Shown: positions 9,142 to 16,321 of the stretch, one piece after another
Layout: every line of letters starts with the position of its first letter
Numbering within the stretch: position 1 is the first letter of the stretch
Source: Gemmatimonadota bacterium
Lineage (GTDB): Bacteria > Gemmatimonadota > Gemmatimonadetes > Longimicrobiales > Gaopeijiaceae
NCBI GenBank assembly: GCA_022826005.1
Contig: JAJDVT010000021.1
Coordinates: 1 to 37,249 of the forward strand
DNA length: 37,249 bases
Reading direction: 5' to 3'
Made by a program: the position numbers and the translations under genes
The notes under the pieces: model-generated
Told to the model about the DNA's origin: nothing
Database searches by the model: none
Seen by the model: only the letters and a program-made list of their open reading frames with translations

Positions 9142-10078
9142 CGCGGCTCCCCGGCGCGTCGTCATCGTCGGGCTGGGCGTCATGGGAGGATCGGTTGCCA
9201 AGGCTCTGAAGCGGCGCGCACCCCGCACGGCCGTCTTCGGCATCGACCCCGACGACGAGTGCGCGGCGCCCGCCTCGCGCGACGGCGTGGTCCGCGCGCA
9301 CGCCCTGGACGACTGCCACCTGGACGGCGCGGTGGTGGTCTTCGCGGCCCCCCTGGACGTCACAGTCGGCCTGGTGCGGGACACGGCCGCGGCCTGGTCC
9401 CGCGCGGACCTCGCTACCGACGTGGCCAGCCTGAAGGTCCCGGTGATGGACGCGGCCGCGGGCGGCGCGGCGGGTCCCGCCCCAGCCCCGGAAGCCCCCT
9501 TCGTCGGCGCGCATCCCATGTGCGGCTCGGAGCGCTCGGGCTACGCGGCGGCGCGGGACGATCTCCTCGATGGCGCGGTCGTCTGGCTCTGCCCGGCCCG
9601 CGTGGAACCGAACCGGAGCGCAGGAACCGCGCGAACCGATGCCGCGGAACGGGTCCGTGCCGAGCCCGAAGGCGCGGAAGCCACCACCCCGGTCACGCCC
9701 CTGGCGCGTGCGCAAGCCTTCTGGCGCCTGCTGGGCGCGCGTCCCCGCACGATCGCCGCCGGGGACCACGACCGCATGATGGCCTGGGCCAGCCATCTCC
9801 CGCAGCTGCTCTCCACGGCGCTGGCCGGGTCGCTGGACGACGCGGGGATCTCCCGGGACGCGCTCGGTCCGGGCGGCCGGGACATGACCAGGCTGGCCCG
9901 CTCCAGCGCGGCGATGTGGCTGCCGCTGCTGGAAGCGGCCCGGGAACGGGACGCGCGCGCGCTCAGCGCCCTCGAGGAGCGGATCGGCGCGGTTCGCCGA
10001 ATGCTGCAGGAGGGCGACCTGGCGGCGCTCGCGAGCCTCATGGAAAGGGGAGGGCGGTGGGCGTCACGGACGGGCTGA
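9134..10078 (+). CDS. tyrA: Prephenate dehydrogenase family protein (TyrA)
   Basis: The 314-residue protein starts at a GTG inside the end of rnz. It has an N-terminal NAD(P)-binding Rossmann motif ('VIVGLGVMGGSVAKAL'), the family motif 'VGAHPMCGSERSGY', and a C-terminal helical domain with 'HDRMMAWASHLPQLL'. The reaction is oxidative decarboxylation of prephenate (or arogenate) on the way to tyrosine. A 30-40-residue Ala/Glu/Arg-rich insertion sits between the two domains (about 160-195). The following aroA-cmk gene starts 22 bp before its stop, so translation is probably coupled and the shikimate-end genes are made together. Confidence 0.9.
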   Translation: MNSAAPRRVVIVGLGVMGGSVAKALKRRAPRTAVFGIDPDDECAAPASRDGVVRAHALDDCHLDGAVVVFAAPLDVTVGLVRDTAAAWSRADLATDVASLKVPVMDAAAGGAAGPAPAPEAPFVGAHPMCGSERSGYAAARDDLLDGAVVWLCPARVEPNRSAGTARTDAAERVRAEPEGAEATTPVTPLARAQAFWRLLGARPRTIAAGDHDRMMAWASHLPQLLSTALAGSLDDAGISRDALGPGGRDMTRLARSSAAMWLPLLEAARERDARALSALEERIGAVRRMLQEGDLAALASLMERGGRWASRTG

Positions 10079-12174
10079 CGATCCGCGTCCCGGGCGACAA
10101 GTCCATCACCCAACGGGCACTGATCCTGGGGGCGATGGCCGGTGGCGAGAGCCGGATCGGCGCCGCACCCCGCGGCGCCGATCCCCTTGCCACGGCCCTC
10201 GCCCTGCGCGGACTGGGCGTCCGCATCGAAGGCCTGGACGGCCCGGCCACCACCCCGCTGCGCATCGCCGGCGCCGGGCCGCGCGGGTGGCGGCAGCCGC
10301 GCTCGCCCCTCGACCTGCGCAACAGCGGCACCGGTGCGCGGCTGCTCGCGGGGGCGCTCGCGGCACAGCCCCTCTCGGTCGTGCTGCGCGGCGACGAGTC
10401 CCTGTCGCGGCGCCCCATGCAGCGCATCGCCGAGCCCCTGCGCCGCATGGGCGCGACCGTGGAGTTCCTGGAGCGGAGCGGCGTCCTCCCCATGCGGGTG
10501 GCCGGCGGCGCGCTGCGCTCCATCCGGCACGACGGCAGCGTGGCGAGCGCCCAGGTCAAGAGCGCGATCATGCTGGCCGCGGTCGGCGCGGGTATGCCGG
10601 TGGAGGTGCGGGAGCCGCGCCGCTCCCGCGACCACAGCGAGCGCATGCTGGAGGCCATGGGCGCCCGGATGCGGGAGGGTTGGCGGGACGGGGCATGGTC
10701 CGTGCGGGTTGCCGGCCCGCCCGCGCGGCTCGCCCCGCTGGATATGGACGTGCCGGGCGACTTCTCGTCGGCGGCCTTCTTCCTCGCCTGGGCCGCGCTG
10801 GCGGCGGGGACGCAGCCTCTGACGATCCGCGGGGTAGGGGTGAATCCCACCCGCACGGGGTTCCTGCCGGTGCTGGCCCGGATGGGCGTCGGGGTGGAGG
10901 CGGTGGTGGGCGGGGCCGCAGGCGGCGAGCCGGCCGGCGACCTTCGGGTCGGCGCGCCGGGGAGCGGCCTGCGGGGGGTGGAGGTGGGGGGTGGGGAAGT
11001 AACGGCGATGATCGACGAGATCCCCGTCCTCGCCGTCCTGGCGGCGAGGGCCGCGGGGGAGACGCGCATCACGGGGGCCGCCGAACTGCGCGTCAAGGAG
11101 TCCGACCGGCTGGCGGCGCTCGCGGTGAACCTGCGCCGGATAGGAGTCCGGGCCGAGGAACTGCCCGACGGCCTCGTCATCGAAGGCAGCCGCCGCCCTC
11201 TCGCCGGCCGCGTGGAGTGCTTTCACGACCACCGCATCGCCATGGCCTTCGGGGTTCTGGGCGCGTCGCCGGGCTGCGACATCACGGTGGACGACCCGGG
11301 TGTCGCCGACGTCAGCTTCCCCGGCTTCCGTCGCCTCCTGGCCCGCGTCAGCGACAGGGCGCGCGCCGGCGCCCGCGGCTCTGCCACGGCGAGCGAGGCT
11401 GCCCGCCCCCCCGCCACGGCGAAGGAGGCCGGTCGTCCCCATGCCACCGCGCGCCGCTGCACGATCGTTGCCATCGACGGCTCCGCCGGGGCCGGGAAGT
11501 CCACCACCGCGGCCGCGGTGGCGGCACGTCTCGGCTACCGGCACCTGGACTCCGGCGCGATCTACCGCGCGGTGACCCTTGGCCTCATGGACCCGGAGGG
11601 CGGCTGTGCAGATGTGGAGCACGTCACTCCGCGGGAACTGGCGGCGCTCGCGCTCGAGGTCCGGTGGGCCGGTGCGGGCATGGAGATCCTGATGCGGGGC
11701 GCATTGGTCCCCGAAGGGGAGCTGAGGGCCGAGCGCGTGAACGCGATGGTGTCGCGGGTGTCCGCAGTCGCGGCCGTGCGGGACCACCTCCTGGAGCTGC
11801 AGAGGGCGGCCGCCCGTCCCCCCGGGCTGGTTGCCGAGGGCCGCGACATGGGCACCGTGGTCTTCCCCGACGCCGACCTCAAGATCTTTCTCGATGCCGA
11901 TCCACGCGAGCGTGCCCGCCGCCGAATCCTGCAACGGGGGCAACGGGATCCGAAGCCCGAGGAGATCGAAGCGGAGGCCGCGCGCCTCGGAGTCCGCGAC
12001 CGGACCGACTCGTCACGACCTGTGGCACCGCTTCTGATGGCCGCGGATGCGCACGTTATCGACACCACAGGTATGCAACCGCAGACCCAGATCGACGCCA
12101 TCGTCGACTTGGCAATCGCGTCCGCAGATCGTCGGCAACCCATCCACAGGACCGGCGAGTCGGATAGACGATAA
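10057..12174 (+). CDS. aroA-cmk: Fused EPSP synthase (AroA) and cytidylate kinase (Cmk)
   Basis: One 705-residue frame from a GTG after AAAGGGGAGGG. Residues 1 to about 430 are EPSP synthase: 'VPGDKSITQRALI', 'NSGTGARLL', 'DHSERMLEAMGA', 'VKESDRLAAL', 'FHDHRIAMAF'. Residues about 468-700 are CMP kinase: P-loop 'IDGSAGAGKSTT', 'LDSGAIYRAV', 'EGRDMGTVVFPDADLKIFLD', 'RDRTDSSRPVAPL'. The linker (about 430-467) holds a repeated ATA-x-EA-x-RP unit. I found no in-frame ATG, GTG or TTG between the domains, so the kinase cannot start on its own. The product should make 5-enolpyruvylshikimate 3-phosphate and phosphorylate CMP/dCMP. Fusions of this pair are annotated in some Burkholderiales. rpsA follows, as it often does after cmk. 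Confidence 0.93.
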   Translation: MGVTDGLTIRVPGDKSITQRALILGAMAGGESRIGAAPRGADPLATALALRGLGVRIEGLDGPATTPLRIAGAGPRGWRQPRSPLDLRNSGTGARLLAGALAAQPLSVVLRGDESLSRRPMQRIAEPLRRMGATVEFLERSGVLPMRVAGGALRSIRHDGSVASAQVKSAIMLAAVGAGMPVEVREPRRSRDHSERMLEAMGARMREGWRDGAWSVRVAGPPARLAPLDMDVPGDFSSAAFFLAWAALAAGTQPLTIRGVGVNPTRTGFLPVLARMGVGVEAVVGGAAGGEPAGDLRVGAPGSGLRGVEVGGGEVTAMIDEIPVLAVLAARAAGETRITGAAELRVKESDRLAALAVNLRRIGVRAEELPDGLVIEGSRRPLAGRVECFHDHRIAMAFGVLGASPGCDITVDDPGVADVSFPGFRRLLARVSDRARAGARGSATASEAARPPATAKEAGRPHATARRCTIVAIDGSAGAGKSTTAAAVAARLGYRHLDSGAIYRAVTLGLMDPEGGCADVEHVTPRELAALALEVRWAGAGMEILMRGALVPEGELRAERVNAMVSRVSAVAAVRDHLLELQRAAARPPGLVAEGRDMGTVVFPDADLKIFLDADPRERARRRILQRGQRDPKPEEIEAEAARLGVRDRTDSSRPVAPLLMAADAHVIDTTGMQPQTQIDAIVDLAIASADRRQPIHRTGESDRR

Positions 12175-12239: not shown

Positions 12240-12478
12240 CTATACCTGCGACCCGGCTCCACCGGCTCCACCGGCTCAGGGAACGCCGGACCGGGAACGC
12301 GAGACCGCTGCATGTCAAACCATGTGGCCGCTTGCCGGGCCAGGAATAGAGGTGCGGTTGCCAGTGCCGCGGCGGGGTGGCCCGGGCAACCCGGATTCAT
12401 TCAACTCCGGCCAACCCGCATCCCGCCTGGCCGGAACAAGTACCTGGAGCGCCGGTCGTGCCCCGGCGAAGCGCAACC
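12240..12478 (+). other. Long untranslated leader of rpsA
   Basis: The 240-nt interval between the TATAAT and the S1 start holds short direct repeats (GGCTCCACC) and GC-rich segments but no supported gene. A 57-codon frame (12312-12482) ends in ATGA over the rpsA start, but its third-position GC content is clearly below that of its neighbours. S1 commonly represses its own translation, so a structured leader would be expected; no specific fold is claimed. Confidence 0.35.
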
Positions 12479-14662
12479 ATGAACGAGATTCAGGCTTCTC
12501 CGCCGGAGACGAACGACGCGGGCGATGCGCCCGAGTCCGAATCCGGGCTGAGCGATGCACCGGACGAGATCTCGCCCGAACTCCTCCACGATCCTTACGG
12601 CGAGGAGCAACTCGATGTCTCGCGCGACGACTTCGAGGCCATGCTCGCGAGCCACCAGACAGCCCGCGGCGACATCAAGGAAGGCCAGATAGTCCAGGCC
12701 CGGGTGCTGCGGACCACCGACGCGTCAGTCATCCTTGAATTCGGATTCAAGAGCGAAGGCTCGGTTCCCATCGAGGAGTTCAAGGACCCCGCGGCCGTGG
12801 AGCCGGGACAGGAAGTCGAAGTCCTCCTCGAGAGCCTCGAGGACGACGACGGCGTGGTGGTTCTGTCCAAGAAGAAGGCGGACTTCCTGCGCGTGTGGGA
12901 GCTCATCCGCGACGCCTACGACAACGACCGGCCCGTGAAGGGGCTGCTGACCCGCAAGATCAAGGGCGGCGTCACGGTGGACATCATGGGGGTGGACGCC
13001 TTCCTCCCGGGCTCGCAGATCGCGCTCAGGCGCGTGCCCAACATAGAGGACCTGATCGGCGATCGGTACGACTTCAAGATCATCAAGCTCAACAAGCGGC
13101 GCAGGAACATCGTAGTGTCCCGCCGCATCATCCTGGAGCAGGAGCGCGAGAAGAAGCGCTCGACGCTCGTCAAAGAGCTGCTCAAGGGGCAGGTGCGGGA
13201 AGGGGTGGTGAAGAACATCACCGACTTCGGCGCCTTCATCGACCTGGGCGGGCTCGACGGGCTCCTTCACATCACCGACATGTCCTGGGGGCGCGTCAGC
13301 CACCCCTCGGAGGTGGTCAAGGTCGGAGGCAAGCTGGACGTCAAGGTCCTTGACATCGACTGGGACCGCGAACGCATCTCCTTGGGGCTCAAGCAGTTGT
13401 TGCCCTATCCCTGGACCGATATCGAGGACCGCTACCCGGTTGGCGCGCGTGTGGCCGGCCGCGTGGTTTCGATTACGAACTACGGCGCGTTCGTAGAGCT
13501 GCAGAAGGGCGTCGAGGGGCTGGTTCACATCTCCGAGATGTCGTGGACGCGGAATGTGCGCCACCCCTCCAAACTCGTGTCGATCGGCGACGAGATCGAA
13601 GCCGTGGTCCTGAAGGTGGACCCGCGGGAAGAGAAGATCTCGCTTGGCATGAAGCAGATCGAGGAGGATCCCTGGCTGACCCTGCCGCTGAAGTACCCGA
13701 CGGGCACGCGCCTGGCCGGGACGGTTCGCAATCTCACCACCTTCGGGGCCTTCGTGGAGATCGAGCCCGGCATCGACGGCCTGGTCCACGTCTCCGACAT
13801 GAGTTGGACGAAGCGCGTCGAGCACCCCTCCGAGGTGGTGCGCAAGGGCGAGCAGGTCGACGTGATGGTCCTCGCGGTGGACTCGGACAACAAGCGGATC
13901 TCCCTTGGCTTCAAGCAGCTCTACGACGATCCCTGGCCGGCCCTGGTGACGAAGTTCGCCAGGGGACACGAACAGGACGGAACGATCGCGCGGCTTCAGG
14001 ACAAGGGCGTGGTGGTCGATCTCGGCGAGGGAGTCGAGGGCTTCGTGCCGGGGTCGCATGCGGGGGTTCCGGTGGATGCGCTGAGCGACCATTTCCGGGT
14101 CGGCGAGGGCGTTTCCCTGCGGGTGATCGCGTCGGATGCCGACGAGCGGCGTATCGTCCTCGAGGTTCTTGAGCCGCCCTCCCGCGGGAGGGCAGCGGAG
14201 GAGGCGGCGGAGGGCGACTCGGATGGCGGCGCCGACTCCGCGGATGATGGCGAGGACGGCAATGCCGTGGGTGACGGCGCAGGCGAACCCGGCGAGGAAG
14301 GGGACGCTGGGGATAGGTCCGAGGACGGCGATTCCGGCGAAGGCGATTCCGACGATGGGTCCGAGGACGGCGATTCCGGCGAAGGCGACTCCGCGGATGA
14401 GGCGGAGGACGACGTTCCCGGCGAGGGCGACTCAGCAGATGAGGCCGAAGGCGACGGTCCCGGCGAAGACGACTCCGGGGATGAGGCCGAAGGCGATTCC
14501 GGCGAAGACGACTCCGCGGATGGGTCCGAGGACGGCGATCCCGAGGAAACCGACTCTGCGGATGAGGCTGAGGACGCCGATCCCGGCGAAGGCGACTCCG
14601 CGGATGAGGCCGAGGACAACGATCCCGGCGAAGGCGAAGACGACGGGGCCGCAGACGATTAG
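12479..14662 (+). CDS. rpsA: 30S ribosomal protein S1 with a long acidic tandem-repeat tail
   Basis: The 727-residue protein has an acidic N-terminal extension (1-60) and six S1 RNA-binding domains at about 66-135, 150-220, 235-305, 320-392, 407-480 and 492-560. Domains 3-5 are the best conserved ('[15 protein letters not shown]', '[15 protein letters not shown]', '[15 protein letters not shown]'), the usual pattern in S1. From about residue 565 the protein turns into a strongly acidic Gly/Ser/Glu/Asp tail of about 160 residues with a 14-residue repeat. The tail makes it much longer than the usual 550-600 residues. S1 brings mRNA to the 30S subunit. The ATG at 12479 begins family-like sequence; no strong ribosome binding site is visible, as is common for rpsA. 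Confidence 0.93.
14321..14659 (+). repeat. 42-bp in-frame tandem repeat encoding the acidic S1 tail
   Basis: About eight imperfect copies of a 42-bp unit lie head to tail, the first starting at 14321 and the second at 14363. The consensus is [14 protein letters not shown]. One unit is 39 bp and the last is shorter. Every length change is a multiple of three, so the frame is kept. Confidence 0.85.
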
Positions 14663-14698: not shown

Positions 14699-16321
14699 AT
14701 GATCAAGGCGAGATCAGGGATGACGGTGCTCGCCTGCACGCTGATTGCCGGGGCAGGATTCGGGTGCCTTGCGACCGCTCGGGCCGTCCCGCAGCCTGCC
14801 GTCCCGGCACCGGTACCCGACCCCGAAGGTCGTCCGCCCGGCACGGCGGAGGCCGTCGACCCGGCAGTCGCCGCCGAGGTCGCGCAGCCTGTCGGGCCGG
14901 ACGGCGACGCCGGACCCGCGGCCGCGGCCATCCTTGCTCTGCCGGCGGAGGAAGTGAACGAGCGGGCGCTGCGGAGTCTGGAAGCGGCACTGTCCCGGCT
15001 TGCGCGCACCGAGCTGGAGGCACTGCAGGAGTCGACAGACCGCCTGGGGCGCGATGCGCGAATGGGATTCGTGTACGCCGAGCTGGCATATGTTTACATC
15101 CTCTCAGGAGAACCCGAAGAGGCACGCCGCTACGCGTCGATGGCGAGGAGCAGCGGTGCGCGAGGGCGGGCGCGGGAGGTTGCGGACGCCGTGCTCAGCG
15201 GTGGCGTGCCGGGGCTGATGCCTCAGAACCTGGTGATCGGGGCCGTTCTACCCGTGACGGGCTCACCTTCCAACCGCGAGTACACACGCCTGTTCCTGGA
15301 GGGTGTCGAGGTGGCCGCCGATCTGGCCCGCCGGGCGGGGTGGAGGTTCGAGTTCCTGGTCGAGGACAACCGGGGCACGCCGTCCGGGAGCGAACGTGGC
15401 GTCTCGGCCCTGGTGTCTCGTGGAGCGGTGGCGATCCTGGGCCCGCTGGCCGCGGAGAACCTGGAATCGGCGGTGCGGGCGGCTCCCCGCGATGTCGCGG
15501 TGCTGTCACCCACTGCCCGCCGCCTCCCCTTCGGACGCAGGGGCGTCTACAGCATGGGCGCGGGCGACCCGGGCGCGGGCCGTGCGCTCGCCGATGCCGT
15601 TCGGAGTGCCGGCTACCAGGAGGCGGTGGTAGTTCACTCCGGCAGTCCCGGGGAGGCGTTGGAGGCCGACGCTTTCGTGGACGCGTTCCACGACCTGGGT
15701 GGTTCGGTCAGGAGGCGGATGCGGTACGAACCCGGGACCACCACCTTCGACATCGAACTCAAGGAGGTCGAGGTGGTCGTCCCCGAGGTGCTCGTCGTCG
15801 CGGCGCCTTCCGCCGACGTGGAGCTGATGGCCCCGCAGATCGCCTTCTACGGCCTCGACACCCTGGACATCCAGGTCGCCGGCACGGCCTCCTGGACCAC
15901 GCCCGCCGTGCTGGAATCGGTCGTCCAGCGGCACACCGACAGCGTCATCGCCGTGAGTCCCTCCGATCCGCGGGCGGCCGTCGATCCGGGGACCGCGTTC
16001 GTCCGGGCGTACGAGCAGCACTTCCGCCGAACCCTGGTCAGCCCGGTGCCCGCGGCCGGCTTCGACCTCTTCCGGATGGCGCTCGCCGCGTATGGGGACG
16101 GGGTCCGCACTTCGCGCGGGACGGTCGCATCGCTCGAGCGACTCGACCGATTTCGCGGGGCGACCGGCACCTACTCCCACGTGGACGGCAGAATCCAGCG
16201 GGAGTTCTTTCCGGTGAGGATCCTCCAGGGTGGGCTCCATCCCTTCGAAACGACGCTGACTGCGCCGGGCGACACCGTCCGGATTCAACGACCCGGCGAC
16301 GACCGCGCGCGGTCCCGATGA
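14699..16321 (+). CDS. Periplasmic-binding-fold protein (branched-chain amino acid receptor / LpoA-like), possible lipoprotein
   Basis: The protein has about 540 residues. The N-terminus has a positive start and hydrophobic core ending 'GAGFGC', a weak lipobox, then a Pro/Ala/Val-rich linker. Residues about 75-165 are helical and TPR-like ('[20 protein letters not shown]'). The rest has the type I periplasmic-binding fold ('[20 protein letters not shown]', '[10 protein letters not shown]', '[12 protein letters not shown]'). This helical-plus-binding-fold layout is like LpoA, the outer-membrane activator of penicillin-binding proteins, but a solute receptor is also possible. GTG 14693 and ATG 14720 are alternative starts. 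Its stop overlaps the pccB start by 4 bp (ATGA), an unexpected coupling of an envelope protein to a carboxylase. Confidence 0.75.

Follow-up and report, generated by a model that had tools for sequence, protein, structure and literature searches.

Ribosomal protein S1 of this Gemmatimonadota bacterium continues past its sixth S1 domain into a strongly acidic tail of 159 residues, and all 71 complete S1 tails read from the same GTDB family were net acidic, a charge that persists while the repeat units composing the tails vary by genus (e.g., ADEPEAA, EAAESDESEAEPEE, and EPGA). A comparable acidic tail also ends ribosomal protein S16 in these genomes, an observation that is new here. We tentatively read the S1 tail as an acidic, disordered brush borne by the 30S subunit that grew by in-frame tandem duplication, is kept for its charge and not its sequence, and screens or competes with unspecific RNA contacts. 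To this reading we assign a probability of about 45%, its close rival being that repeat slippage is simply tolerated, subject to a weak filter that favors soluble sequence.

The S1 gene and its repeat-built tail

The window, i.e., the whole 37,249-nucleotide stretch of DNA that was analyzed, is one entire contig (C43) of a 4.85-Mb assembly in 143 contigs (96.8% complete, 3.9% contaminated). Its rpsA gene, encoding 30S ribosomal protein S1 (bS1), the main mRNA-catching ribosomal protein in many bacteria, lies on the plus strand at 12479..14662, including the stop codon, and specifies 727 amino acids with no internal stop. The product scored 582.4 bits against the NCBIfam model TIGR00717 (rpsA; cut-off, 577) and 695.4 against NF004952 (cut-off, 524), and it is the only full-length S1 in the assembly. 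Nearest by S1 among named relatives were Gemmatimonadetes records (97% identity to SB0661_bin_2) as well as a Longimicrobiales record with a 4.47-Mb chromosome. The rpsA gene adjoins cmk in its usual gene order, and here too the upstream open reading frame (ORF) at 9259-12174 contains EPSP synthase and cytidylate kinase domains. As called, that ORF of 971 amino acids unites aroA and cmk domains, and the approximately 270 residues ahead of aroA matched no family in the profile search. The rpsA start (ATG at 12479) is in register across most of the genus, and genome G083 has an in-frame stop just upstream of it. Immediately 5' of the start, positions 12446-12478 hold a GGAG followed by a 6-bp inverted repeat (CGCCGG/CCGGCG), which could form a leader hairpin between the ribosome-binding site and the start; one pair of the repeat is altered on both sides in G093 and G025. 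Against such a hairpin, the folded 71-nt piece was no more stable than its shuffles and the hairpin was absent from the best fold, and it also counts against the hairpin that the leaders compared had been chosen by their GGAGCG (11 of 90, of which 9 were aligned). A promoter and terminator scan yielded nothing of use, and the sole 16S match spans positions 9-873, so the anti-Shine-Dalgarno sequence is not readable there.

Six S1/OB domains (12677..14167, plus strand; limits set by us) were found as six Pfam PF00575 stretches and as six OB-like blocks in an AlphaFold2 model computed from an alignment of 31 sequences: D1 at 12677-12883, D2 at 12926-13138, D3 at 13175-13396, D4 at 13436-13657, D5 at 13697-13918, and D6 at 13955-14167. 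By net charge, taken without surface analysis, D2 alone is clearly basic (+8), the other domains ranging from -8 to +1. The domains are preceded by an acidic extension of 47 residues (12479..12619, plus strand; 14 D/E, 0 K/R) that is poorly predicted in the model and probably disordered; among relatives, the 25 residues upstream of the aligned S1 body were net acidic in 67 of 69. Next comes a predicted helix (residues about 48-62, 12620..12664, plus strand; residues 49-62 in the AlphaFold2 model), which holds one phenylalanine, within DDFEAML. It stands at the place of the N-terminal helix that, with two phenylalanines, anchors Escherichia coli S1 to S2 according to the passages cited (PMC4288201), and the two may be equivalent.

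The tail itself comprises residues 569-727 (14183..14659, plus strand), with 74 D/E and only 3 K/R, and is made up of D 44, G 34, E 30, A 22, S 15, P 6, R 3, N 2, V 2, and T 1. It is predicted to be disordered: pLDDT, averaged over blocks of ten, was about 72-96 in the six domains and 35-53 in the tail, and regular structure was absent beyond residue 575. Translation of the tail DNA in either alternative forward frame gives basic peptides. Tandem Repeats Finder (TRF) reported a 42-bp array at 14297..14637 on the plus strand (8.2 copies, 79% matches, score 393), in addition to a period-165 row over the same array (score 475) and a period-15 row (75); no remaining array of the window scored above 77. 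At lag 42, the array DNA was 76.9% identical to itself, and the 99 codon pairs at that distance comprised 52 identical pairs, 14 synonymous differences, and 33 nonsynonymous ones. These results bear out the preliminary description, which had placed an acidic tail of about 160 residues, with about eight 14-residue units from a 42-bp repeat, behind six S1 domains; its 14-residue consensus agrees with the TRF unit except at one place, where it has S and the TRF consensus has P. Outside rpsA, the 42-bp repeat was found nowhere in the 4.85-Mb assembly, the second match being the start of the same tail, and a mobile repeat was therefore rejected. That the repeat is an assembly artefact is unlikely because its units have diverged from one another and because relatives on single long contigs carry the same kind of tail, as does G025, in which a 7-residue unit is repeated 14.2 times at the S1 end on a 4.47-Mb contig.

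Constant charge and changing sequence among relatives

The same GTDB family is represented by 96 genomes, 90 of which had an S1 match, and all 90 were read. Nineteen were left out (15 with contigs ending inside the tail and 4 with masked bases), leaving 71 complete tails, a sample that may be biased against the longest arrays by the contigs that end within them, and that includes one pair identical in body and tail DNA (G011 and G087) as well as the frameshifted G008. Tail lengths ranged from 29 to 192 residues (median, 85), with at least 50 residues in 63 of 71 and at least 100 in 29 of 71; the window tail ranked sixth. Net acidity was universal (71/71), with a median of 0.33 per residue, a weakest case of 0.02, and values above 0.2 in 58 tails. 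In contrast, base-shuffled tail DNA encoded slightly basic peptides (median net acid, -0.12 per residue), and z scores against such shuffles exceeded 3 for 69 of the 71 tails, the lowest being 2.1. TRF arrays were present in 49 of 71 tails but in none of 71 body segments of equal length and in 15 of 71 codon-shuffled tails. All 49 real arrays had periods that were multiples of three; as this was equally true of all 15 arrays in the shuffled controls, it says little. Length spreads more than 5-fold in the family, and within the window's genus, tails of 159, 118, 155, 40, 55, 73, 58, and 145 residues were found.

How such differences arise can be seen in the sister species G075, G011, and G063, whose S1 body DNA is 97.8 to 98.3% identical and whose tails hold 2, 3, and 6 copies, respectively, of an 18-bp unit, in frame and with intact flanks. 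Change by whole in-frame units, which the preliminary description had predicted for strains, is thus seen between species. An exception to its supposition that every length change keeps the frame is G008, which exits the acidic frame. There (locus L167), a frame shift inside the repeat, which is either a real mutation or a sequencing error, gives a basic S1 tail, and another frame stays acidic to the stop. Tail dN/dS was 0.22 to 0.80 over seven partly overlapping pairs, compared to 0.01 to 0.05 for the body over six pairs (the body value of 2.2 for G042-G006 was dropped owing to an alignment offset), and the pairs with more change had tail values of 0.22 to 0.30. Single substitutions that altered charge class numbered 4/7, 5/11, 4/9, 6/13, 8/21, 10/22, and 25/67 in the seven overlapping pairs, a mild deficit at best relative to an expected fraction of 0.48 to 0.52. 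When tail length was mapped on a tree built from 69 S1 bodies, possession of at least 100 residues changed 18 times, compared to a mean of 22.0 after shuffling (8 of 200 shuffles gave so few), and possession of at least 85 changed 16 times, compared to 23.2 after shuffling (0 of 200 gave so few); there were fewer changes than under shuffling, yet still 16 to 18, and tail length therefore carries a signal of kinship together with many gains and losses. Across the 71 genomes, the acidity of the S1 body and that of its tail rise together (rho, +0.36). A balance of charge between S1 body and tail was accordingly rejected, the sign of the correlation being opposite.

In other families of the phylum, 77 genomes had an S1 match, of which 69 were read and 66 had complete tails. 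Tails had 106 and 107 residues in family f2, 37 and 175 in f3, 18 to 60 (median, 21) in the 19 genomes of f4, 22 to 46 (median, 35) in the 30 of f5, 45 and 51 in f6, 40 in six of the seven f7 genomes and 98 in the other, 66 in f8, and 66, 115, and 192 in f9. These lengths show that long S1 tails mark the order of the window (f1 to f3) and, independently of it, f9; elsewhere they are scattered. In named loci from other phyla, 9 of 40 complete tails had at least 100 residues and 37 of 40 were net acidic, although less strongly (median, 0.11); acidic S1 tails are thus widespread, while extreme length and charge are not. The earlier generalization that S1 usually ends soon after domain 6 consequently stands for part of the phylum only, long acidic S1 tails occurring elsewhere.

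The S16 tail and the genome around it

The proteome of the window genome is neutral as sampled (426 ORFs, 699 kb; mean net acid, 0.0035 per residue). Ranked by its most acidic 60-residue stretch, the S1 tail (33) was exceeded by one of these ORFs (38), and the third reached 18. The ORF above it (L197:8064-11186, contig C3) holds an acidic low-complexity stretch, net 38 in 60 residues, and shows a weak, below-cut-off similarity to peptidases of the Dpp5 and lasso-peptide kinds. That nucleic-acid-binding proteins carry acidic tails as a rule was unsupported by the examples read from this genome, namely, one SSB, whose acidic tip is unremarkable, and three cold-shock proteins, in which only 1 to 6 residues follow the domain; some helicase rows, taken from the wrong strand, were left out. 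The C-terminal 72 residues of its S2 are basic (net +5), and among the ORFs kept from the ribosomal protein cluster on contig C88 by a heuristic that dropped some true genes, no other tail of the size found on S16 (124 residues) was seen. An L17-like identity for ORF L348:15768-16331 was unsupported by its sequence; by eye, the neighboring ORF at 15005-15643 looks closer to L17.

S16, which occupies another part of the ribosome than S1 does, ends in this genome (L316:1501-2046, contig C33) in an acidic tail of 124 residues with a net acid of 32 and imperfect repeats. A second S16 (L317, C116:1773-1949, minus strand) has a tail that by eye resembles those of genus g12 (G011, G063, and G075) and not g1; it probably sits on a contaminant contig, or else is possibly a paralogue. 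In the family, S16 was matched in 84 genomes; of the 67 loci that were read, 58 had complete tails, and these had a median length of 95.5 residues, 57 of the 58 were net acidic, and 27 had at least 100 residues. The S16 tails of g12 are rich in A, R, and E and low in net charge. In the 54 genomes with both tails complete, the length of the S1 tail was correlated with that of the S16 tail (rho, 0.51), as was its net charge (rho, 0.61). With kinship removed by 52 independent contrasts along the S1 tree, the result was r = 0.32 (p = 0.012) for length and r = 0.15 (p = 0.05) for net charge, with the same sign in 35 of 52 and 34 of 51 contrasts, respectively; by rank, the contrasts were correlated for net charge (rho, 0.36; p = 0.009) but not for length (rho, 0.10; p = 0.46). 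Covariation of the two tails is therefore suggestive: it is modest once kinship is allowed for and is partly due to kinship.

Competing readings and known systems

In the reading we prefer, the S1 tail would be a long, intrinsically disordered polyanion that lengthens and shortens by in-frame tandem duplication and is retained for its charge and a range of lengths, its sequence being free. It would form an electrostatic brush beside the RNA-binding domains and, together with the S16 tail, on the 30S surface, where screening and transient competition with RNA, in the manner of a nucleic acid mimic, may loosen unspecific contacts with RNA or between ribosomes and hasten release. A bulk electrostatic role on the surface of the 30S subunit is favored over a binding motif because charge is constant without a constant sequence, because the tail is predicted to be disordered and changes by in-frame duplication, and because S16 carries its twin; an explanation confined to S1 is disfavored since a similar tail occurs on S16 in these genomes. 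We infer that selection on charge underlies the acidity, although tail dN/dS of up to 0.80, close to relaxed, argues against this. Also against the brush are the lack of tuning of the tail against body charge, the more than 5-fold spread in length, the fact that D2 alone is clearly basic, the mildness of the charge-class deficit, and the absent rank correlation of the length contrasts. We consider doubtful, but worth stating, the broader proposition that the 30S subunit of this order wears an evolvable acidic brush whose S1 and S16 parts lengthen and shorten in step as repeats duplicate in frame, with selection acting on the sum of negative charge regardless of sequence, so that unspecific contacts with RNA and ribosomes could be adjusted rapidly in evolution.

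It is somewhat less probable, if a serious possibility, that the 3' ends of rpsA and the S16 gene, each bordering a free C terminus, merely accumulate repeats by replication slippage, with soluble acidic sequence as the least harmful outcome and no positive function. Just such behavior is suggested by the very fast turnover (40 to 159 residues in one genus), the highest dN/dS values (up to 0.80), the frequency of TRF arrays (49/71), the frequent gain and loss of long tails (the at-least-100-residue state changing 18 times on the tree of 69), and the one frameshifted tail of G008; yet 71 net acidic tails out of 71 is a narrow outcome for a stretch that is only tolerated, soluble tails that are neutral or basic do exist here (the 72 residues of S2 at net +5, the S16 tails of g12 with low net charge), and the pairs with more change have the lower dN/dS of 0.22 to 0.30. 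A docking platform for specific basic partners, such as initiation factors, nucleases, or parts of RNA polymerase, seems improbable: the passages cited suggest that low-complexity C termini of ribosomal proteins lie at the ribosome surface and serve interactions (PMC6821194), but a motif should persist if docking were specific, and none is kept between genera, whose units differ.

Two further readings have very little to recommend them. Adaptation to salt, with a whole proteome made acidic as in salt-in halophiles, might be prompted by record names that link some relatives to sponges or soda-lake sediment, habitats that we presume for them; the neutral proteome sampled here contradicts it, leading us to reject a salt-in proteome, and L039, taken as a soda-lake record, has a tail of 47 residues only. 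Nor is it at all likely that the 42-bp tandem repeat, real as it is, acts as DNA or RNA, be it a structured element or a recombination site, with the peptide as a by-product, as the repeat is absent elsewhere in the genome and relatives keep the charge but not the DNA. At the RNA level, such an element was rejected: the repeat RNA folds less stably than its shuffles (z, +2.07), 99 of 100 of which were at least as stable. If the brush is the right reading, tails of up to 192 residues that switch units between genera and are acidic in every complete case read make a clean case of bulk-charge selection in a core protein of translation; if slippage is, they are a striking instance of free-running repeats on a conserved machine. 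The parallel S16 tails make it testable whether the cell sets the total negative charge on its 30S subunits.

Open-licence PMC literature, covered as titles, abstract starts, and cited passages, yielded no account of an S1 with an acidic tail built from repeats. Passages of a survey of S1 proteins report six domains for the FCB group, said there to include Gemmatimonadates, and an average of about 570 residues for Gram-negative groups with six-domain S1 (PMC6705787 and PMC6566611); the window S1 conforms in its domains but reaches 727 residues owing to both extensions, and acidic tails are not mentioned in those passages. Low-complexity tails are described as frequent on ribosomal proteins, mostly at the C terminus and with S16 as the main case, in the cited parts of PMC6821194, whose list of proteins with at least 20 such orthologues (S2, S16, L25, S3, S6, L3, L10, L17, L19, L21, and L31) does not contain S1. 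The window S1 tail resembles these in being a C-terminal low-complexity stretch on a ribosomal protein; such tails are taken there to be exposed at the surface of the ribosome (PMC6821194). The S16 of the window genome bears a tail of this type as well. The two differ in composition: the S16 regions described there are mostly at least 70% A plus E, whereas the window S1 tail has 33% (52 of 159 residues) and is rich in D, G, and S.

Among systems understood in detail, the closest precedent for the S1 tail is the acidic C-terminal domain of Hfq, a tail that, in the passages cited, competes with nucleic acid for the core (PMC5606850); an effect of the S1 tail on RNA binding may be supposed along the same lines. 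As in Hfq, a tail that is acidic and, by prediction, disordered follows an RNA-binding core and varies between bacteria. Unlike in the Hfq described there, the fold is different, and the S1 tail is longer, is built of repeats, and is known here from sequence and prediction. A simple copy of the Hfq scheme is disfavored because the charges of S1 body and tail are unbalanced and S16 is also tailed. A looser parallel is offered by RimK, which polyglutamylates ribosomal protein S6 (RpsF); there, according to the passages cited (PMC11957791), ribosome behavior is altered when acidic residues are attached to a 30S protein, but the addition is post-translational, whereas in S1 the acidic residues are encoded in the gene itself, so that the likeness is one of analogy only.
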